Below, piece by piece: positions 15,144 through 26,795 of a stretch of 64,000 nucleotides of DNA. The translations under genes were made by a program, and so were the position numbers. The first letter of the stretch is position 1, and each line of letters starts with the position of its first letter. A model generated the notes under the pieces. It was not told where the DNA came from and searched no databases. It worked only from the letters and a program-made list of their open reading frames with translations. Source of the stretch: Candidatus Jordarchaeia archaeon (GTDB lineage Archaea; Asgardarchaeota; Jordiarchaeia; Jordiarchaeales; Jordiarchaeaceae); the NCBI GenBank assembly GCA_018383815.1, contig JAHAWU010000001.1, forward strand, positions 1 to 64,000, given 5' to 3'.

Positions 15144-17474
15144 TTAATCGTTGTTTATTTTAACTATGATTTTTTCGAGTTGTTTTCTCTGGGCAGTTAG
15201 TTTGCTATTAATATAGAGGCAGAGTCCTTCCTTTTCTTGATCGATTTTTTCTTTTCTCCAGGTAATTTTTATTTTGTGCCCCTTATACAATAGATTGTTG
15301 AGAGTGAAGTATTCCAAGTTGAGGGGTAGTGGGTCGAGAACCACCACATTTTCGGTTTGGGGTTGGAATCCTGCGATGTATCTTATGATTAAGTCCACTA
15401 CCCAGGAATGCATGTAGTCGTCAACGCCCCTGTAGCTGCTGGGACAACCGGTTAACGGATTGTAGTGTTCATAGCAGTTTGGTGATTCAGGATTCTCTCG
15501 GTAGAACATCATTCGAATAAATTTACTTAGAAATTGGGCGGTCTTAATTTTAAGAGAGGTATCCATGTAGTAGGCGGTTTGTGCTAGGGCGTCGCAAATA
15601 TGGCTGTTGGTCATAGGCCAGACTCGACCATTCCAAGGACAGTATTTTCGGACTCCCTTCCATTCAGCCTCCGGGTTGAAAAAGGGGTGATCTCTGCTTA
15701 GTGTGGGTACCGGATAGGGGGTCCAAAATTCTTCAGGATTCAAGAGATGTTTGCGTATAGCACCCAAGTGGTGAGAATCCACTATATCGGTCATGAAGGG
15801 GTAAAAACAAACTGCTGCCTTGACATTTGAGGGCTCAAAGTTTTCTGGTTTCACGTCGAAGAAGAACTGTTCCTCGGGATTCCACATAAACTTTAACATG
15901 TTCTCCTTAATTTTTTCAGCCTCGGTAGCCCACTTTTCACTCTCCTCTTTTTTCCCCAGCGCCTGTGCCATAAACGCTAAGAGTTTTTTCAACTCGTAAA
16001 TATAAGTTGTAGCATCCACACCCTTCAGCCTAAATGTCACATCCCTATCAGCATTTTCCTCGGCGAACAGGTAGCGCGCATTATACTCTTGACCTGTTTC
16101 GTACTGCTGAATTACATCGTAAAGACCACTCCCCTCCGGATCTCGCTGCCTGTCGAAATATTTGGCGTATTTTGTAAGGGGCTCATAAATCTGTTCAAAA
16201 AATTGGACATCGGGATGTATCTGGTATATTTGCAAAATTCCCTTGGCATAATTTGCGTGATAGATAAACCAGTCATCTGTTTTTCCCTTGAACCCCACTC
16301 CTCCAGGTATTGCTCCGTTTTCATGTATGTTTGATAGAAGTCCAAGCAGTGAACCCTTCGCCACTGATGGGTCATGCATCCAGGAGCATTCAATCATGTG
16401 ACACTGGGCACTGTACGAAATATGGTGTCGAAACCAGCCTCCGTCTCTCTCACCTATCCCTTCATATATAATAGGGTGCTTATGATAGTTTTGCCCTACA
16501 TTTATCATGTTTAGTTTTAATCCATACCAGCGGTACCAGTAATATTTGGTGATGTAGGGGTCTGAGCACTCGAAGCTCGGGACACTGTTGAAAAAATCTC
16601 TCCAGTTCTGCCGGCTTAATTCAAGAGGATTCTTGTCTTGAAGGTCTTCAAGATTGTTTAAACACTTGTCCTTATCATGGGACACGCTGCAGGCAAACCA
16701 GGTATAGTTGTGGAAATCATGTTGTAGGTCAATGGTGTAATGGAGACCAATGTAGATGCTACCGAACTCGCTAAAAGGTTTTTCAGGAATAGTCTCATCC
16801 TTAAACTTTCCCCCATAAATCTTCTCGGGGAAAGGGGTAACTACCCATAGGGGTTGGTCTTCCAGAGAGCCCAAGCTCATGTGGAAATTTTCACATAAAT
16901 TTATGGTGTAAGAATTCAGTTTTTCTTTTGCTCCCAGAGCGTACCACACTCGGTAATTGCATTCACTGTTTGTGTGTATCTCCTCCTGAGAAAAAACAGC
17001 ACTGTTATTTGTAATTTCCGGATTAGTATAGATCAGCCCCTCGTAGTCAAATGGGTAAGTTAACCTGATAGGCATAGGTTTAGGGGGTCTACGGTCCAGC
17101 TTTGTCCACATTATGAAGTGGCAATACCTATCCTTGCTCCCATTGTTTACTATGTCCATTTGGGAAACAAACACATTGGTCGGTGTTAAAAGTTTGTTCT
17201 CAACAATGCTCAGGTCCTCAGCGACAAACTTTTGAGAGAGACTGCTTGGCCTCCAAACTCGCTCAATTACATTAAAGTTTATAGTATTTAACTGCTCATC
17301 CAACACGGTTATCGTGAATATGTGTGGAAGTTTCTGATCTAGGTAGTAGCCATAATCCCAAAACCCCAAGGTGTCGAGATGTAGCGGAAAACAGGGAGCC
17401 CATAAAGCAGCGGTACCTCCACCTACAAACCACTTATCACTCCTCGACAAATACTCATCAGGATTCGTTATCAT
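15144..17474 (-). CDS. Six-hairpin (alpha/alpha)6 glycosidase, MGH1-like/GH63-related
   Basis: ERDGGWFRHHISYSAQCHMIECSWMHD, YCPWNGRVWPMTNSHICDALAQTAY, CYEHYNPLTG; no signal peptide seen. Confidence 0.7.
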   Translation of the reverse strand: MITNPDEYLSRSDKWFVGGGTAALWAPCFPLHLDTLGFWDYGYYLDQKLPHIFTITVLDEQLNTINFNVIERVWRPSSLSQKFVAEDLSIVENKLLTPTNVFVSQMDIVNNGSKDRYCHFIMWTKLDRRPPKPMPIRLTYPFDYEGLIYTNPEITNNSAVFSQEEIHTNSECNYRVWYALGAKEKLNSYTINLCENFHMSLGSLEDQPLWVVTPFPEKIYGGKFKDETIPEKPFSEFGSIYIGLHYTIDLQHDFHNYTWFACSVSHDKDKCLNNLEDLQDKNPLELSRQNWRDFFNSVPSFECSDPYITKYYWYRWYGLKLNMINVGQNYHKHPIIYEGIGERDGGWFRHHISYSAQCHMIECSWMHDPSVAKGSLLGLLSNIHENGAIPGGVGFKGKTDDWFIYHANYAKGILQIYQIHPDVQFFEQIYEPLTKYAKYFDRQRDPEGSGLYDVIQQYETGQEYNARYLFAEENADRDVTFRLKGVDATTYIYELKKLLAFMAQALGKKEESEKWATEAEKIKENMLKFMWNPEEQFFFDVKPENFEPSNVKAAVCFYPFMTDIVDSHHLGAIRKHLLNPEEFWTPYPVPTLSRDHPFFNPEAEWKGVRKYCPWNGRVWPMTNSHICDALAQTAYYMDTSLKIKTAQFLSKFIRMMFYRENPESPNCYEHYNPLTGCPSSYRGVDDYMHSWVVDLIIRYIAGFQPQTENVVVLDPLPLNLEYFTLNNLLYKGHKIKITWRKEKIDQEKEGLCLYINSKLTAQRKQLEKIIVKINND

Positions 17475-17763
17475 AACCTTCTCTCCGTGGAAATAGAAAA
17501 TAAACCTTTGTATAAAAGACAGTTGGGAATAATTATGTGATATTTTGTTCGATGCAGGCTTTTGAGTTTGAATTTCACTACCTTATAGCTCATATAGCGT
17601 ATTTTAAAAGACCTCACGCTCCCTCCATACTGTTACGCCTTAAGCCGCATAAGCCTTGGAGGTACTGGTGTCCGTCTTGGATGCTTGAACGTTTATTTTT
17701 TCCTCTTTAAAGTAGTGTGTTTTGAGGCTTCATTGTTTGAGGTGAAATCCTTCTGTGGTTATT

Positions 17764-19086
17764 TTATTGGTGGATTACTTCGATTAGGTGGGTTGCACAT
17801 GAGACGCAGGGGTCGAATGTTCTTATGACTCTTTTTGCATTTTCTTTTAGTTTCTCTATGTCTTGTGTGTTTTGGTAGCTGTCTCTGCATGTTTCCAGCA
17901 ATTTTTGGTTGATGGTGGAGAGGTTGAGTTCTGTGGGGGTGATGATGGTTGCTGATTCAACTATGTTTTTGGTGTTTACTTTGTACTGGTGTATTAGTGT
18001 TCCTCTGGGGGCTTCTACCACTCCGATGCCTACTGGTGTGGCGATTTTGTTGAGTTGGGGGAGTTCTTGTTCTTCTATTAGTTCTGGCTCGTTGAGTATG
18101 AGTATTGCGTCGTACATTGAGGCAAGAATTTCTATGAGTCTGAGGAAGTTTGAGTAGAGGAGACTCTCCCTCCAGCTGGTGGGCACTTCGTCCATTAGGC
18201 TGTGTACTTCGTAGGCCCCGTATCTCTCGATTATTTGGTTTCTGGCCATGGGCCCAGTTAACACCAATTTTTCTCCGTTAATCTGTATCCCTTGCGATTT
18301 TTTCTCAGTGTCTATGTATTGGGGGTATTGTTCTGGTTCGAAGTCCGCTAGAACTTTTTTTCCTTTAGCGATGCGGAGTTTTCCCTCGTATAAGTTGAAG
18401 TTGCCGCCTTCATTTAGTGCCATGAATGCTGTTTCATCTATATTGTAGAACTTTTGAGGCTCACCGATTTTACCCATGTACTCTAAGAGTTTTTCTATTA
18501 TTCCTCTCACTGTGGTGGCGCCTCTTCTAAGGTTGGACTGTAGTCCTACCACTTCTTTTTCCGCCAATTTTTTAGAGACTCCGCCTACTAAGCTGGTTAC
18601 TGGGTGGGGCACCCTTCCACCAATGTGGTCTAGGAGCTCATTTCCAATTTTAATTATTCTGAACAATTTTTCAACCAGGTCCGTTTCCATTTTTGAAAAC
18701 TGTTGAACGCTGTACTTTTCATAACCATTTTCCGTCATCGCTTTTAGGTCGGGAAGCGCGAAGTAGAAGAAGTGTAATGCGTGAGACCGCATAAGCTCTC
18801 CAGCAAGAAGGAGTTTTCTCATAAGAATGCAGGATTTGGAGGGGGTAACATCGTATATTTTTTCCAGTGCTTTGCAGGCTGCTATTGCGTGTGCTGAGGA
18901 GCAGAGTCCACATATTCGGGATGTGATTCTGGGAACGTCCTCCACCATTTTTCCCACTAAAATTTTTTCGAATCCTCGAGGTAGATACATGTCAAAATTA
19001 GCGTTGTAGACCTCCTTGTCATTAAGGTATACTGTTATTTTAGCGTGTCCCTCAATTCTGGTAACCGGTTCAATAATTTTCTTCAT
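17764..19086 (-). CDS. NiFe hydrogenase large subunit (group 3, MvhA-like)
   Basis: PVTRIEGHAKITV; L1 motif RICGLCSSAH; L2 motif DPCVSCATH. Confidence 0.9.
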   Translation of the reverse strand: MKKIIEPVTRIEGHAKITVYLNDKEVYNANFDMYLPRGFEKILVGKMVEDVPRITSRICGLCSSAHAIAACKALEKIYDVTPSKSCILMRKLLLAGELMRSHALHFFYFALPDLKAMTENGYEKYSVQQFSKMETDLVEKLFRIIKIGNELLDHIGGRVPHPVTSLVGGVSKKLAEKEVVGLQSNLRRGATTVRGIIEKLLEYMGKIGEPQKFYNIDETAFMALNEGGNFNLYEGKLRIAKGKKVLADFEPEQYPQYIDTEKKSQGIQINGEKLVLTGPMARNQIIERYGAYEVHSLMDEVPTSWRESLLYSNFLRLIEILASMYDAILILNEPELIEEQELPQLNKIATPVGIGVVEAPRGTLIHQYKVNTKNIVESATIITPTELNLSTINQKLLETCRDSYQNTQDIEKLKENAKRVIRTFDPCVSCATHLIEVIHQ

Positions 19087-19092
19087 CCCATT

Positions 19093-19851
19093 TCACGTCC
19101 TTGGGCGGCGAAGCCTAAAAATAATTCCTTCATAGGTTCTCAACTTTTCTGATAGTTCCAGTGTTGAGAGGAAGTTGATTACATTAGCAGTATAGTCTAA
19201 ACCGTTGGGAGGCCCCATACAACCCTCGCAGGGTAGCCCCACTTTGATACATTTTGCATCGCATCCTTCACGGGTCACCGGACCTAAACAGAGCACGTTT
19301 TCGTCGAGGAAACAGCTTGTGGGAAACTTTTGGGGTTGTAATTTGTCTACACGGATTGTTTTGAATTTTTCCAGTTTGGGCCTCAAATCGCAAACTGCAC
19401 AGAGATTTCTGTTTGTTTCGGGAAGATTTCTTCCCTCAATTAGTGAAAGTATAGATGCTCCCAGAACATTTTCAGGTGGAGGGCAACCCGGAATAGCTCC
19501 ATCGATTTCTATGATTTTAGAGAGGGGGTCCTTCCGAGCATTCTGTGATAGGCTCTCTATCCCTCCAAACATGGCACAGGCGCCGAGGGCAATTATTTTT
19601 TTGGATGCTTTTCGCAGCTTTTTCAGTAATATTTCTTCATCCTTCTGGGTAACACATCCCTCAACAAGGGTAACGTCAGAATATTCTAGTTCCTCTTCCT
19701 CCTTTATCGTGTAGGGGTAGGAGTCCTCAACAAAGGGGAAGTATACTATTTCCGCGGATTTTACAAGGTTGAGGAAAACATCTAGACAGGTAAGTGTGGA
19801 GATGCAGCCGTTGCACGAGTTAAGGGAGATTGCTGAAAATTTTAGTTTCAC
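19093..19851 (-). CDS. NiFe hydrogenase small subunit (MvhG-like)
   Basis: NSCNGCISTLTCLD, EGCVTQKDE, GACAMFGGI, GCPPPEN, GLPCEGCMGPP; 4-bp ATGA overlap with the upstream HdrA gene. Confidence 0.88.
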   Translation of the reverse strand: MKLKFSAISLNSCNGCISTLTCLDVFLNLVKSAEIVYFPFVEDSYPYTIKEEEELEYSDVTLVEGCVTQKDEEILLKKLRKASKKIIALGACAMFGGIESLSQNARKDPLSKIIEIDGAIPGCPPPENVLGASILSLIEGRNLPETNRNLCAVCDLRPKLEKFKTIRVDKLQPQKFPTSCFLDENVLCLGPVTREGCDAKCIKVGLPCEGCMGPPNGLDYTANVINFLSTLELSEKLRTYEGIIFRLRRPRT

Positions 19852-22394
19852 GTCATCATCTCCGATAATTTGTCATGCATTAGGTTCACTATCTCTGCGA
19901 ACCTGTAGCCTTCTACCGCGTTTAGCGATGATAGAACTAATCTATTCTCAATTTGGGGAATTCCCACTTCCTTAAGTATTTTGATTTTTTTCTCCAACTT
20001 GTTGATTCCATCTATGTATCTGCATGAGCCATATTTACAACCCACAATTAGTACCCCATCGAATCCTCTCTCCAACGCTTTTAAAATAAACTCGGTGTCC
20101 ACTCTACCAGTACAGGGAACCATTTCAACGAAAATATTGGGATGGTACTGTATTTTCCTTAGCCCCGCCTCATCCGCCGCTGCATACCCGCAATGCTCAC
20201 AGCAGAAAGCCATAATTTTGGGTTTGTGGCTATACTTGCTGTAAACTTCTATGGATCTGAGAATCTTTTCTCTTGTTATCACATTCATCTCTAACGCCTT
20301 TGTGGGGCAAATGCTTACACAGACCCCACAGCCCTTACACTTGAAATCATCAATGGTAATCTTGTCATCCTCACAGGATATAGCGTTAAAGGGGCAGACA
20401 GACATACACAAACCACATAAACCACACTTATCATAGTCAATATCAATACCTCTAATGTCCGCAAGTAAATAATCCCTTGATAATAGAGAGATTATTTGAA
20501 GAGCTACTTCATTAGATTCCGCTATAGCCGTGTGATAATCTTTAGGCCCAGTAACAGTCCCACACCCAAAAATCCCTGAGCTCAGTGTCTCCTTGGACAT
20601 AAAACCCTTATCATCAAAAGCGAAATCCAAGGTTTTGCGAAGCTCAGCCAGCTCCCTACTTGGAACCATACCAATGTTTAGAATAACCAGGTCCGATTCA
20701 AAGTCCCCCTTCTCAGTACTTATCACTTTCCTCCCAACCTCCACTTTTATCCCTAATACCTTACCAGTATGAACAGTTTCTGGCAGGTTAGCGAGCGCCA
20801 ACCTATTTGCGGCGCTTTTACTGTTCTCTATAAAAACTTTGACTTCGCAGTTAGGAAGCTTCTCCCGAATCGCATCTAGATACTTTCTGGAAAGTATGTA
20901 GCAGTAATCGGAACTAAGACTGTAATCGCCCACACCCTGAATAATTACAATTTTTTGTGGCGCCTTGCCATCGGAAAGTTTTACAAGATTGCCCTGTGTA
21001 GGTCCATCAGAAGCAAGAATTCTCTCAAACTCCGCAGAAGTGACAACGTCCCAACGCGGATTATGATTGTAAAGCTCCAAGTCTTGGTACAGATCAGAGC
21101 CGATTGCTAAAACCTTCGCCCCAACTTTTATGGTCATTGTTACAGGCTTCTGATCCAGATTTATGGCTTTATTCAGACAGGCTCTTTCACAGACCCGACA
21201 TTCTCTGCATTTCTCAATATCCTCCTCGTCTATGGTTGCCGCATAGGGATAGGCCTGAACAAAGGGAATGTAGATTAGCTTCCTCTCATCCAAACCGTAC
21301 TCATACTCGTTTTTCTTAGTAATAGTGCATATACTCATGCACCGTTTACAACCAGTACACTTATTTTCATCCACGTAGCGTGGCTTGCGAACCAGTTCGA
21401 TGGTGAAGTTTCCCACATTTCCAGAAACGGATAGAATTTCAGTATTGGTGAGAATCTCAATATTTTTCTCATGTACCAGATACAGAATCTGTTCCGAGAG
21501 GAAACAGGATGCACAGTCTAGGACGCCCTCAATCTTGCTCCACCTTGCAACTTTTCCCCCTAGAGTAGGCGACTTTTCAATAAGGTAAACTTTTAATCCG
21601 GCCTCCGCCAATTTTAAAGCCAGATTCATACCCGCAATGCCCCCACCAATAACAGCCACACTTTTTTGAACCTCCACAGTTTTGGTTTTAATCTCTCTTT
21701 GAAGGATAACCCTCTCCACAGCAGCCTCAATGAGTAACCCGGCCTTTTCCAGGGCTTCCACAGGCTTTTTAGAATTCACCCAGCATAATTGCTCCCTAAT
21801 ATTAGCAAAATCAATGTTTGTTAGGGGTATAAGATTCCCAAATATGCGGTTAAATATGTGAGAGTGCGTACGAGGACTGCAGGCGGCAATAACCACCTTA
21901 TTTATAAAATTGTCCTTAAACCATTTCTGAATCTTTTTCTGATTCTTCTCCTGACAAAGATTATCAAAAACCGCAACGGACACCACATTATTTATGCGGG
22001 ACACACGGTTCTTCAAAGCCTCCACACTAATTGACTGCTCAATCTCTGAGCCACAAGTACAGATAAGTATCCCCACGCGGCTCAACTCGGTTTTTCGGGA
22101 CTCAATTCTTTCTATCTCTTCACCTGAGAGAATCTTCTCATTTAACTCCATTATTTTGATGACCGTTTTTCCTTCTTCCGAAAGCTTGTAAGCTTTTCCC
22201 TCTTTGGTAATTAGGCTTCCCAACTTTGTGAGGTGAAAATTCAACTGCCCCGTTGTTTCAATGTTGAGCTCTTTGAGAAGATCTGAGTACTGCATGTAAC
22301 CCTCTTTTTCTAATAATAGGAGGATTTTTCTTCTGAGGGGGTGGCCTAAAACATTATATAAGTCCATCTGTGTCACCGCGTTGTATTTTTTCAC
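19848..22394 (-). CDS. Winged-helix DNA-binding domain / HdrA / MvhD triple fusion
   Basis: ArsR-like wHTH (residues about 1-90: LGHPLRRKILLLLEKEGYMQYSDLLKELN...), HdrA FAD domain (VIGGGIAGMNLALKLAEAGLKVYLIEK) with ferredoxin clusters, C-terminal MvhD-like domain (FCCEHCGYAAADEAG...PCTGRVD...GCKYGSCRY). Confidence 0.88.
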   Translation of the reverse strand: MKKYNAVTQMDLYNVLGHPLRRKILLLLEKEGYMQYSDLLKELNIETTGQLNFHLTKLGSLITKEGKAYKLSEEGKTVIKIMELNEKILSGEEIERIESRKTELSRVGILICTCGSEIEQSISVEALKNRVSRINNVVSVAVFDNLCQEKNQKKIQKWFKDNFINKVVIAACSPRTHSHIFNRIFGNLIPLTNIDFANIREQLCWVNSKKPVEALEKAGLLIEAAVERVILQREIKTKTVEVQKSVAVIGGGIAGMNLALKLAEAGLKVYLIEKSPTLGGKVARWSKIEGVLDCASCFLSEQILYLVHEKNIEILTNTEILSVSGNVGNFTIELVRKPRYVDENKCTGCKRCMSICTITKKNEYEYGLDERKLIYIPFVQAYPYAATIDEEDIEKCRECRVCERACLNKAINLDQKPVTMTIKVGAKVLAIGSDLYQDLELYNHNPRWDVVTSAEFERILASDGPTQGNLVKLSDGKAPQKIVIIQGVGDYSLSSDYCYILSRKYLDAIREKLPNCEVKVFIENSKSAANRLALANLPETVHTGKVLGIKVEVGRKVISTEKGDFESDLVILNIGMVPSRELAELRKTLDFAFDDKGFMSKETLSSGIFGCGTVTGPKDYHTAIAESNEVALQIISLLSRDYLLADIRGIDIDYDKCGLCGLCMSVCPFNAISCEDDKITIDDFKCKGCGVCVSICPTKALEMNVITREKILRSIEVYSKYSHKPKIMAFCCEHCGYAAADEAGLRKIQYHPNIFVEMVPCTGRVDTEFILKALERGFDGVLIVGCKYGSCRYIDGINKLEKKIKILKEVGIPQIENRLVLSSLNAVEGYRFAEIVNLMHDKLSEMMT

Positions 22395-22443
22395 CGATTT
22401 ATCAAGGAAAGTTTATTGGTTAATAAAAATTTTCGTAAATTAA

Positions 22444-22640
22444 AATTGACAACTATATTTGTCAAATACATCGTTCTTATTGTCTTAATATTTATTGTAA
22501 CTGGTTTAATAAACTTGACTTGCCAGACAATTATTGGAATAAAATTTAATTGTCAAGAAAAATTGGATTTTCCTCTTTTTATTCAAACTATACAACAATT
22601 TTCAAGACAATTAAAATTGTCATAGTTCAGAAAAGACAAG
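22444..22640. promoter_or_regulatory. Cluster of GACAATT/AATTGTC (TTGTC) inverted repeats between divergent genes; candidate operator array
   Basis: TTGACAA-6-TTGTCAA (22446-22465), GACAATT-15-AATTGTC (22526-22554), GACAATT-AA-AATTGTC (22606-22621), plus additional TTGTC/GACAA half-sites. Confidence 0.55.
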
Positions 22641-22708
22641 TTAAGATTAGTTTTAAAACCTAACACCCTTTTATTGTTTAATCAGAGAATGAATGGAGGA
22701 AGGAAAAA

Positions 22709-23353
22709 ATGGAAGAATTGGAAATTAGAAAATTGCGTAGGAAAACTCTCACGGTGGTATTGTATGAAGAGGGGAACTCCCAGGCTTCCAAACATTCCGA
22801 TTGCTTCAATGAACAAGATGGGAATCCCTTACTAAACGTTATTCTAACCTATCATCCCGACTTTATAACTGCAGACAAAGATTGCATGTTTGGCGTTAAC
22901 GGTCAAAGCGTGAATGTGGAGGAATTCAGAGAGGTAGGGGTTCCACTCTTCAGATTAGGAATACCTCAAAACGCCCGATTATATTTGGAACAGGAAATAG
23001 ATGACCTGAGAGAAAAAATAGAAGAATTAAAGGAAGAATTGGAGAGATTCCTCTCCGAGAACCCAAAAAATGCGAGCACCTACAAGGGACAAAACCTGAA
23101 ATCCCTGATAGAATTCTACGAGAAGGAAGCAGACGAAAAAGAGGAATACATGAATACTGTAATAACCGCTAGGTGGATAATAAAACAATTAATCGACCTA
23201 GCCAGCGAAGTGCCTGAAAAGGAAGTAACCTGTATACACATCACCCCCTCCAAACTATTCGACGAATTAGCACAACAAATGAGCGAGACAGACTTGGTAG
23301 TTCTGCCGATGAGAACGACCACCCACATGAAGCAAAATGAATTAGTACATTAA
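22709..23353 (+). CDS. Uncharacterized protein paralogous to the N-terminal domain of the next gene (possibly TraB-like)
   Basis: YHPDF..., GVPLFRLGIPQNARLYL..., VTARW-like pattern aligns with RPDF..., GIPYSYVDIADNARDYI..., REAW in the following ORF; ORF follows GGAGGAAGG. Confidence 0.65.
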   Translation: MEELEIRKLRRKTLTVVLYEEGNSQASKHSDCFNEQDGNPLLNVILTYHPDFITADKDCMFGVNGQSVNVEEFREVGVPLFRLGIPQNARLYLEQEIDDLREKIEELKEELERFLSENPKNASTYKGQNLKSLIEFYEKEADEKEEYMNTVITARWIIKQLIDLASEVPEKEVTCIHITPSKLFDELAQQMSETDLVVLPMRTTTHMKQNELVH

Positions 23354-23376
23354 AAAAATTATCTGGAGGGTTAATA

Positions 23377-25056
23377 ATGGAAGTTTTAGAATTAGAGCCA
23401 CTGAAGGGACAGAAACTAAGGATAGTTATGGTTGAAAGCGAACATGGAATTGACTGGTACCTACTAGAACCATCCAATTCCCCTAAAGACTTTTTCTCAG
23501 AACTAAGAATTATGTCCAAGGAGTACAGAGAATTCATAAACAAGATGGTTGAAGAGTATAGACCCGACTTTTGCCTTGAGGAGAGGGGAATGAGAAGTAT
23601 TGAAGAGTTTCTATATGACAATCCTTTGGTGGATGTTTTCAAAAAACATGGAATTCCCTACAGCTATGTGGACATTGCAGACAACGCCCGCGACTACATC
23701 TGGTCCACAATAAGCAGGCAACAGGAATTGAGAAACGCTCTAATTGAACAGATTACTAAAATTCTTGCCAAAAATCCTGAAGCAAGAAAGAATGATGAAA
23801 ACTTCCTAAAACTGGTTACTTGGGCTCAATACTTTGAGCAAAATTTGAAGGAAATTGAGGAGGACATAAAATTTAGGGTTCGCGAAGCATGGATGATGAG
23901 TGGCGTCCTAAACCAGGCAAGGGAAATCAAAAAGAAAAATGTCACCGCCATGCTTATATGTGACCCCCGCCATGCAGATGGAATATCCAAGCTGTGCACC
24001 GATCTAGATGTAGATTTAGTCACGGTTAAAGCAAAAAAGGAAATAAATAACAAGGAGGAAACCGCTGAGCTTTCCAGCCTCCTTGAATCTAGCCATGTTG
24101 AAATAATACCCATAGTTGTGAAGAAGAAGGAGCAGAGACAACACATATTATACTTCTTGGATACAGACCAGCATGCAAGCCCCTTTGACATGAACATGGC
24201 TTACGACGCTGGCTTCGACGTGGTCATTCCTCTGGGTGGAGTAAAGCCAGACGAGGCTCAAAGACTGGTACAAGACATAATATTCTCCCGAGGACCTAAA
24301 GGAGCAAAGTACACCGCAATCTTTGTCGGTGGAAGCAATGTAAATCAAGCCCAAGAAATATTTGAGAAAGCCGTTGAATCCTTGGTGCCACCCTTCGAAG
24401 TTCCAATAATTTTTGATCCAAGAGGAGCCTGCACCACCGCCTCAGCACTGGTAGCGAAGGCTGAAGAAGCCGTGATTACCCTTAATCTGGGCAATATTGA
24501 AAAAATGAAAGTTGCAGTTCTAGGGGGAACAGGGCCTGTAGGAAGATTCGCCTGCATACTGGCAGCAAAGCTAGGCTGCAAAGTATACATGGTGGAAACC
24601 TGGTCTGGTGCCAGTGAACAATATGTGAAAACTGTAGCCACGAATCTAAACGAAAAGTTCGGTGTGGAGATAGAAGGAGTTTTTGCCCCGAACAAGGAGC
24701 GAATGGAAATAGTACAGGATGCTGACATGGTATTCTCTGTGGCGAAGGCAGGTGTACAACTCCTCAGCAAAGAGGACGTAGAAGGTCTAAAACCGAAAAA
24801 ATTGCTCCTCGATGTCAACGCTGTCCCTCCCTTAGGAATAGGTGGACTTGACCGAAACGACGATAAAAAGGAGTTGAAACCCGGAGTTTACGGCGTTGGT
24901 TCATTGGCTATTGGTGCGCTAAAAAGGCAAGTCGAGGAAAATCTACTAAGAAAGGCTAAGGAAGTTAAAGGAAAAGCGGTCTTCGACCATCTGGCCGCAT
25001 TTGAAACTGCAAGGGAAATTCTTCTCGAAAAACCAGTCATCTCCAAGGCTGCGTGA
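23377..25056 (+). CDS. Fusion of an uncharacterized (possibly TraB-like) domain with an MtdB-like methylene-tetrahydromethanopterin dehydrogenase
   Basis: C-terminal about 310 aa: ILYFLDTDQHASPFDMNMAYDAGFDVVIPLGGV, FVGGSNV, AVLGGTGPVGRFACILAAKLG, NAVPPLGIGGLD, YGVGSLAIGALK, matching MtdB organisation. Confidence 0.8.
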   Translation: MEVLELEPLKGQKLRIVMVESEHGIDWYLLEPSNSPKDFFSELRIMSKEYREFINKMVEEYRPDFCLEERGMRSIEEFLYDNPLVDVFKKHGIPYSYVDIADNARDYIWSTISRQQELRNALIEQITKILAKNPEARKNDENFLKLVTWAQYFEQNLKEIEEDIKFRVREAWMMSGVLNQAREIKKKNVTAMLICDPRHADGISKLCTDLDVDLVTVKAKKEINNKEETAELSSLLESSHVEIIPIVVKKKEQRQHILYFLDTDQHASPFDMNMAYDAGFDVVIPLGGVKPDEAQRLVQDIIFSRGPKGAKYTAIFVGGSNVNQAQEIFEKAVESLVPPFEVPIIFDPRGACTTASALVAKAEEAVITLNLGNIEKMKVAVLGGTGPVGRFACILAAKLGCKVYMVETWSGASEQYVKTVATNLNEKFGVEIEGVFAPNKERMEIVQDADMVFSVAKAGVQLLSKEDVEGLKPKKLLLDVNAVPPLGIGGLDRNDDKKELKPGVYGVGSLAIGALKRQVEENLLRKAKEVKGKAVFDHLAAFETAREILLEKPVISKAA

Positions 25057-25262
25057 TTACACTCCCCTCCTCTCTTTTTTTGCTTTCTAACAAATCAAGC
25101 TTGGTTGAAGTTTTTTTGTCGATATGTTGTGAGTCTCAGCTTCTGCGTTTGGAAGTTATTTACAAAAGTTATAACGGCACTATGTAACTGGAAATCCTCC
25201 CCAAGGTATTTTCCTTTTGTAGCTTAAAATTTGTAAGTATTTAGAGAGGATAGGTATCCTTT

Positions 25263-26333
25263 TTATATCCATTTTTTTCTCCGGAAAAAGATAATCATTA
25301 TACTTCCGATGATAGCCATTACGACGAGCACCATGTGGTATCCTTCGGGCCATTCTATTTCCGGCATCCAGGTGAAGTTCATACCGTAGATGCTGGCTAT
25401 GAAGGTTAAGGGTATAAAAATTGTGGCGATAATTGTTAACACTTTGACAATCTCGTTGGTCTTGTTGCTTATGCTTGATAGGTAGGCGTCAATCATTTCG
25501 GAAAGCATTTCTCTATAGATCTCGATGGTTTCAATCACCTGGATGGTGTGGTCATAAACATCTCTGAGAAAGATTATCGTTGCCTTTTTAACCAGGGAGC
25601 ACTCGCCCCTTTCCAGAATATTAATCACTTCTCTTAAAGGCCAGACAGACTTGCGTAAGAACAGTAGCTTTCTTTTCAGACCGTGAATATTTTTTAAAAC
25701 TTGTGGGGAGGGTTCAGTTACCAATTTTTCTTCCACATCCTCAATTTTTTCCCCCACTTTTTCTAAAACCACAAAGTAGTTGTCCACAATGGCATCTATT
25801 AAAGCATAGGCCAAGTAGTCAGGCCCCATCCTCCTTACGCGTCCCTTAGCGGTTCTAATTCTATCCCTTATTGGGTCAAAGACATCTCCTTCCTTCTCCT
25901 GGAAGGATATAACATAATTTGGGCCGACAACCAAGCTGACTTGTTCTGATTGAATTTCACCATTTTTATTGTCGGTGTAGAGCATTTTTAAAACAATGAA
26001 GAGGTAGTTCTCGAAATCCTCAATTTTGGGGCGCTGCTCGGTGTTCATAATATCTTCCAAAATGAGGGGGTGTATGTCAAACTGTTTCCCTATTTTTTCG
26101 ATGATTTCTGCCTGGTGGACGCCGTCTATATTTATCCAAGTTACAGTTGGAGTGTCTTTAAATGGAAAGCACTCCTCAATTGCTTTCACCTCTTTTTCCT
26201 GAAAGTGCGTTTCATCATAGTCCATAACCCTAATTTTCACTTCGCCCGCAACTTTTTCTCCAATATACACGGGAGTTCCCGGGGGCAGACCAACCATTTT
26301 TGAAGTTTTTCTAAACAACTTTAAACTGGGCAA
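25263..26333 (-). CDS. corA: CorA family Mg2+/Co2+ transporter
   Basis: C-terminal YGMNF motif between two TM helices; CorA-type N-terminal domain. Confidence 0.92.
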   Translation of the reverse strand: MPSLKLFRKTSKMVGLPPGTPVYIGEKVAGEVKIRVMDYDETHFQEKEVKAIEECFPFKDTPTVTWINIDGVHQAEIIEKIGKQFDIHPLILEDIMNTEQRPKIEDFENYLFIVLKMLYTDNKNGEIQSEQVSLVVGPNYVISFQEKEGDVFDPIRDRIRTAKGRVRRMGPDYLAYALIDAIVDNYFVVLEKVGEKIEDVEEKLVTEPSPQVLKNIHGLKRKLLFLRKSVWPLREVINILERGECSLVKKATIIFLRDVYDHTIQVIETIEIYREMLSEMIDAYLSSISNKTNEIVKVLTIIATIFIPLTFIASIYGMNFTWMPEIEWPEGYHMVLVVMAIIGSIMIIFFRRKKWI

Positions 26334-26456
26334 CTACCATCATCCCTGTTCAGACAACTCCATTTTTTCGCATATAGGAGATATCCAATAAGCATTTTTT
26401 GGCGAGATGAGCTCCCAGAATACATATATTGTGGGGTAGAAATGATTTTAGTTTCG

Positions 26457-26795
26457 CTAAACTTTACATCCACATTTCTTATTTTTCAGGATTCTAATTT
26501 GCTCCTTAATGGGAGTCACATACTCGGTTTGTGTCTCAGCCCCAGTTGCCAATTCTATTTTGAGTGGGCTACTGTGCTTGTATCCCCTTTTCTCCATCTC
26601 GCCAATAAGCTTTTCGTGCCTCAAATACAAACATTTTAACTTACCCTTCCACCTCAGGGTTTCCGGATGGTGGGAGTAACCTTTCTTGCCCTGAGTTAAA
26701 ATCTCCCAAATGGCATGAAGCTCCCTATGCTCCCCCAACAAATGCTTGTTACATAACTTTTCTGGAGGAATATCCCAGATTCGCATAAACACCAC
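26457..26795 (-). CDS. Pyrimidine dimer DNA glycosylase / endonuclease V-like (Pyr_excise family)
   Basis: MRIWDIPPEKLCNKHLLGEHRELHAIWEILTQGKKGYSHHPETLRWKGKLKCLYLRHEKL. Confidence 0.8.
   Translation of the reverse strand: MVFMRIWDIPPEKLCNKHLLGEHRELHAIWEILTQGKKGYSHHPETLRWKGKLKCLYLRHEKLIGEMEKRGYKHSSPLKIELATGAETQTEYVTPIKEQIRILKNKKCGCKV

Follow-up and report, generated by a model that had tools for sequence, protein, structure and literature searches.

The 314 bp between a gene for a winged helix-turn-helix (wHTH) domain fused to HdrA and a divergent gene pair ending in an MtdB fusion hold an array of inverted repeats, which raises the question of which protein acts there and on which genes. The locus lies in the window, i.e. 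the whole stretch of 64,000 nucleotides of Candidatus Jordarchaeia archaeon DNA that was analysed. The two operons flanking the repeats are made up as follows.

17764–19086, minus strand: NiFe hydrogenase large subunit of the HdrA operon, Mvh/VhuA-like (Pfam NiFeSe_Hases)
19093–19851, minus strand: hydrogenase small subunit of the HdrA operon, Mvh/VhuG-like (Pfam Oxidored_q6)
19848–22394, minus strand: wHTH-HdrA-FlpD/MvhD fusion, the proposed regulator (Pfam, NCBIfam, orthologue starts)
22151–22367, minus strand: predicted wHTH domain of the fusion with the recognition helix TTGQLNFHLTKL (AlphaFold, Foldseek, conservation in 36 species)
22709–23353, plus strand: small protein of 214 residues, a distant homologue of the N-terminal domain encoded by the next gene
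23377–25056, plus strand: MtdB fusion, an N-domain of about 230 residues followed by methylene-H4MPT dehydrogenase (Pfam Mpt_N at residues 269–348, 3e-30)

Both the small protein and the MtdB-fusion N-domain (22709–25056) are further duplicated in the f3 genomes. Profile and fold searches gave no Pfam, NCBIfam or significant PDB match for the small protein and no such relative for the domain type as a whole, which is modelled as an alpha/beta core plus a long helical insertion.

Repeats between the two operons

The preliminary description had placed three dyads and additional half-sites in an AT-rich divergent promoter region, and every repeat string and coordinate that it quoted was found in the sequence, including the half-sites TTGTC at 22480 and GACAA at 22635. 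The GC content between the HdrA ORF and the small ORF is 24.5%, in agreement with that description. Half-sites are in fact dense beyond expectation, with eight TTGTC/GACAA in the region against a mean of 0.81 and a maximum of 5 in 5000 dinucleotide-preserving shuffles. As an array of three dyads the claim stands in part: two full operators (dyads 1 and 3) and conserved half-sites are retained, and the middle dyad is no operator. The elements are listed below, with their state in the sister species L031.

22446–22465, no strand: operator 1, HdrA-proximal, TTGACAACTATATTTGTCAA, matching TTGACAA-N6-TTGTCAA at 14/14 positions (TTGACAA-ctatat-TTGTCAA)
22480–22484, no strand: half-site TTGTC, conserved, in a ATTGTCTTAA block kept in L031
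22550–22554, no strand: half-site TTGTC, right arm of the middle dyad, TAATTGTCAA kept in L031
22604–22623, no strand: operator 2, MtdB-proximal, AAGACAATTAAAATTGTCAT, the second match of a position weight matrix (PWM), in register in L031
22635–22639, no strand: half-site GACAA between operator 2 and the putative TATA box, in a block GAAAAGACAA[GA]TTAA kept in L031
22653–22660, plus strand: putative TATA box TTTTAAAA of the small-MtdB operon, in a block ATTAGTTTTAAA identical in L031

Dyads 1 and 3 share one motif, GACAA-N6-TTGTC, with the full form TTGACAA-N6-TTGTCAA; the core of operator 2 is GACAATTaaAATTGTC at 22606–22621. Two copies of this core are present in the intergenic region, while among 5000 shuffles one copy arose once and two copies never. 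Throughout the 3.79-Mb genome the exact core was matched only twice, both times at this locus and 158 bp apart. One-mismatch matches, by pattern matching as in all genome-wide scans here, numbered 67 against 103 for a reversed control pattern; since they are not enriched, the operator is a narrow, local element in this species.

The intergenic regions of the window and L031 can be aligned end to end, and the HdrA match in the sister genome G002 has 85% identity. The arms of operator 1 are identical in L031 at 14/14 positions, its spacer differs at three of six, and the core of operator 2 is conserved in register. Seven of the eight half-sites are retained; the missing one is the left arm of the middle dyad (22526–22530), where GACAATT is replaced by CATAATC, and for this reason the middle dyad is not a conserved dyad. 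GACAATT-N15-AATTGTC (22526–22554) was considered as a third operator and rejected on this ground and on its spacing, so that its arms were counted as half-sites: 19 nt separate its GACAA and TTGTC, a distance found at a match of at least 9/10 in 3 of 57 orthologous regions, compared with 38 of 57 for N6. The half-site at 22480–22484 has no partner half-site at the correct distance.

The motif across Asgard families and rearranged loci

Conservation in orthologous intergenic regions was assessed in 57 regions upstream of wHTH-HdrA genes of Asgard species, 55 of them remaining after exclusion of Jordarchaeum. A blind search of these 55 with all gapped 5-mer palindromes, which made no use of the motif of the preliminary description, ranked GATAA-6-TTATC first (16 regions against 0.10 expected), followed by TTGAT-10-ATCAA and TGATA-8-TATCA, with TTTGA-12-TCAAA and GACAA-6-TTGTC also near the top; the top patterns all represent one palindrome in register, TTGAYAA-N6-TTRTCAA. 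When the arms were fixed and the spacer varied, 44 of 57 regions scored at a spacer of 6 and between 1 and 14 at other spacers. Individually, 36 of 57 regions reached p<=0.01 against shuffles, and weak or altered sites were found in the f13 and f29 regions (p 0.04–0.14). A PWM built without the Jordarchaeum sites scored operator 1 at 24.9 bits and operator 2 at 16.6 bits in the 64-kb window, the next match outside the locus reaching 11.7 bits. The motif is thus kept in arms and spacing across several Asgard families. The regions share descent, so their shuffle p-values are not to be multiplied, and safer evidence comes from the spacer control and from the relocated sites.

Relocated sites were observed in the g3-type genomes, in which eight regions have no site directly before wHTH-HdrA. 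Wherever enough sequence was available (6/6 regions), a co-directional gene precedes wHTH-HdrA, in L119 an FrhB homologue, and in all six the site is found upstream of that preceding gene, with a best score of 12.5–13 of 14 and p 0.003–0.010. The small-MtdB operon of these genomes lies kilobases from wHTH-HdrA and carries a site of its own in 8 of 11 cases at p=0.003 and in 2 of 11 at p about 0.02; one of the 11 has none. Outside these 11, one G063 cluster has a perfect site before a small gene. Where genomes gave no wHTH-HdrA match, 0/5 MtdB fusions have the site, a set that covers few lineages and in which the fusions mostly come without the small gene and may not be true orthologues. Fisher's exact test of 8/11 against 0/5 gives about p=0.013 (0.007 with 8/10), uncorrected for relatedness. 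By these counts, the site stays with each of the two operons where these lie apart, and it occurs together with wHTH-HdrA.

In 18 genomes with wHTH-HdrA, about 16 of the 36 full-length sites with one mismatch are found no farther than about 12 kb from that gene. The distant ones were considered as possible members of a further regulon; many are inside ORFs (L187, L188, L172, L173) and were taken as chance, and those of L167 and L174 lie between ORFs.

In L119 (5176–7000), L127, L128 and L132, a second HdrA, which appears as two ORFs, is divergent from the wHTH-HdrA operon and shares a common operator region with it. A recoded stop may be what divides it into two, as HdrA with selenocysteine has been reported from Asgard archaea (PMC9723677).

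The fused winged helix and its possible mode of action

The N-terminal wHTH that had been ascribed to the ORF adjoining operator 1 is borne out by Pfam, with DUF7347 at residues 11–81 (2.3e-11), and by a predicted ArsR/HxlR-type fold. Further along the chain are HdrA2 of NCBIfam at residues 106–846 (8e-175, below the family cut-off) and FlpD at 727–846 (8e-33), so that wHTH and full HdrA-FlpD occupy a single ORF, a fusion retained in dozens of species. The listed GTG start at 22394 is probably too early, the start common to orthologues being the ATG at 22367 (residue 10) with GGTGA just upstream.

Residues 1–105, which contain no cysteine, were modelled by AlphaFold as a winged helix (pLDDT 88) with the recognition helix before the beta-wing, and the best PDB matches by Foldseek were YodB, CadC, QsrR and HxlR. 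Across 36 species no stretch of the domain is better conserved than the recognition helix TTGQLNFHL, T48, G49, L51, N52, F53, H54 and L55 being invariant or nearly so. A changed helix accompanies the weaker or altered sites of f13 (TSGKLNFHL) and f29 (TGILNFHL). In L112 and L114 of f29, GTAACAAC-N4-GTTGTCC was seen about 244 nt before the HdrA match in both; this is suggestive only of an operator that perhaps co-evolved with the changed helix.

Taken together, the palindromes are probably operators of the wHTH domain fused to HdrA-MvhD, which would act as an autoregulator co-controlling the HdrA-hydrogenase and small-MtdB operons. Density, conservation and relocated sites all speak for the autoregulation and co-regulation of both arms put forward in the preliminary description. 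A mechanism can be proposed in which a homodimer of the fused winged-helix domain would bind TTGAYAA-N6-TTRTCAA in the shared promoter region, controlling its own operon (wHTH-HdrA-MvhD with the small and large hydrogenase subunits) and the divergent small-MtdB operon of the methanopterin C1 pathway. HdrABC-MvhAGD complexes dimerise via HdrA, and such a dimer would suit a two-fold symmetric site.

The sign of control may differ between the arms. On the HdrA strand, many relatives have TATA-like hexamers clustered 8–10 nt upstream of the operator, which would then span the DNA from TATA to start site, and binding should block initiation; from this position in relatives, autorepression may tentatively be suggested. 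The HdrA TATA box of the window and of L031 is ambiguous, a conserved AT block GAAAATTTTTATTAA lying downstream of the operator. On the MtdB strand, operator 2 starts about 49 nt before the putative TATA box in the window, and the palindrome starts 48–49 nt before a TATA-like box, with a half-site between, in L046, L159 and L164. The f3 MtdB-side promoters have a TTRTCAA half-site directly before TATA, placed like that at 22635–22639. For SurR, a related regulator of the Thermococcales, sites upstream of TATA activate and downstream ones repress (PMC12162507). By the SurR rule the fusion might act as a repressor on its own operon and could be an activator of the MtdB operon, on which side the operator, about 48 nt upstream of TATA, would take the position from which SurR activates.

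A variant compatible with the core of this explanation assumes pure repression on both sides, with TFB/TBP or RNA polymerase occluded. It is a serious possibility, if one leaning towards doubtful: the second half-site abuts BRE/TATA on the MtdB side in f3, and SurR repression can need sites both upstream and downstream (PMC12162507), but the better MtdB-side site, about 48 nt upstream of TATA, is farther away than simple occlusion needs.

Alternatively, a stand-alone factor, e.g. of the DUF7347/ArsR or Lrp/AsnC type, could use the palindromes to control the Hdr and MtdB operons, with the HdrA-fused wHTH no longer binding DNA or acting via protein contacts only. An Lrp/AsnC regulator does adjoin one such cluster (L189, 2039–2464), the L161 MtdB operon has as its neighbour an FrhB/FdhB-type protein (1270–2706) whose C-terminus weakly matches a TrmB winged helix, and TGxLNFHL-type helices occur superfamily-wide, so that helix conservation alone proves little. 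Against it, no further regulator gene was recognised at 15144–26795 of the window or beside the L031 operators, the site tracks wHTH-HdrA and often lies no more than about 12 kb from it, and the recognition helix is the very part of the wHTH domain conserved best; these two suppositions are jointly considered unlikely. Binding by the fused domain is thus still the reading preferred here. The protein at L161 1270–2706 may itself be another redox enzyme joined to a domain that binds DNA.

That the GACAA/TTGTC pairs are function-free products of AT-rich intergenic DNA is extremely improbable, for in spite of the one-mismatch counts (67 against 103) and the unconserved middle dyad, it is refuted for both full sites by the shuffles, the uniqueness in the genome, the conservation across families and the spacer specificity.

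For the autoregulatory fusion, the most tentative step is the redox one, in which HdrA flavin, Fe-S clusters or complex assembly might set DNA binding, as in a redox trigger enzyme of the PutA type. That the HdrA-MvhD subunit serves as a redox-responsive transcription factor, with flavin/Fe-S state or hydrogenase assembly switching its DNA binding, is a conjecture only slightly less probable than its opposite. If true, redox-responsive HdrA-MvhD would keep the HdrA-hydrogenase module and the methanopterin C1 branch in balance throughout the Asgard archaea. A regulator fused to the electron-bifurcation-type enzyme that it would control would, in one protein, couple gene expression to the cell's energy state. 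How Asgard archaea control transcription is little known; for several of their families, sequence now suffices to name a cis element, the regulator that likely belongs to it and the operons targeted. What is new is the exact motif, how widely it occurs in Asgard families, the relocation of the target operons and the association with wHTH-HdrA presence; neither a wHTH-HdrA fusion nor an operator for it was reported in the literature searched, an absence that is weak evidence.

Comparison with known systems

The predicted domain has the helices and beta-wing of an ArsR/HxlR-type winged helix, and YodB, QsrR and HxlR (DUF24) are among its nearest solved folds. These are stand-alone thiol-based quinone- and redox-sensing repressors of bacteria, unlike the HdrA-fused domain with no cysteine. 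The joining of a methanogenesis-type enzyme to a regulator domain has a parallel in the FmdE-transcriptional regulator fusion of Methanosaeta, in which the enzyme is different and for which no description of an operator was found (PMC11237513). HdrA-HdrA and HdrA-MvhD fusions are given in the same survey, and neither HTH nor helix-turn-helix occurs in its main text (PMC11237513).

SurR resembles the fusion in its ArsR-like winged helix, its hydrogenase and electron-transfer targets, the inclusion of its own gene in the regulon and sites on both sides of TATA boxes (PMC12162507). It differs as a stand-alone protein that has two wHTH domains, the N-terminal of which carries a CxxC switch, and binds GTTn3AAC-type sites, whereas the HdrA fusion has a single cysteine-free wHTH and the site TTGAYAA-N6-TTRTCAA, which places it outside the SurR family.

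PutA is a bacterial protein in which an RHH domain is joined to proline dehydrogenase. It is cited as the repressor of its own put operon (PMC6978683). Like PutA, wHTH-HdrA-FlpD would be a redox enzyme with a DNA-binding function beside its own operator, the domain and operator being predicted here, and a catalytic flavoenzyme and a putative DNA-binding domain are found in one chain, as in trigger enzymes. In conclusion, judged by these likenesses, SurR and PutA are the closest analogues of wHTH-HdrA.
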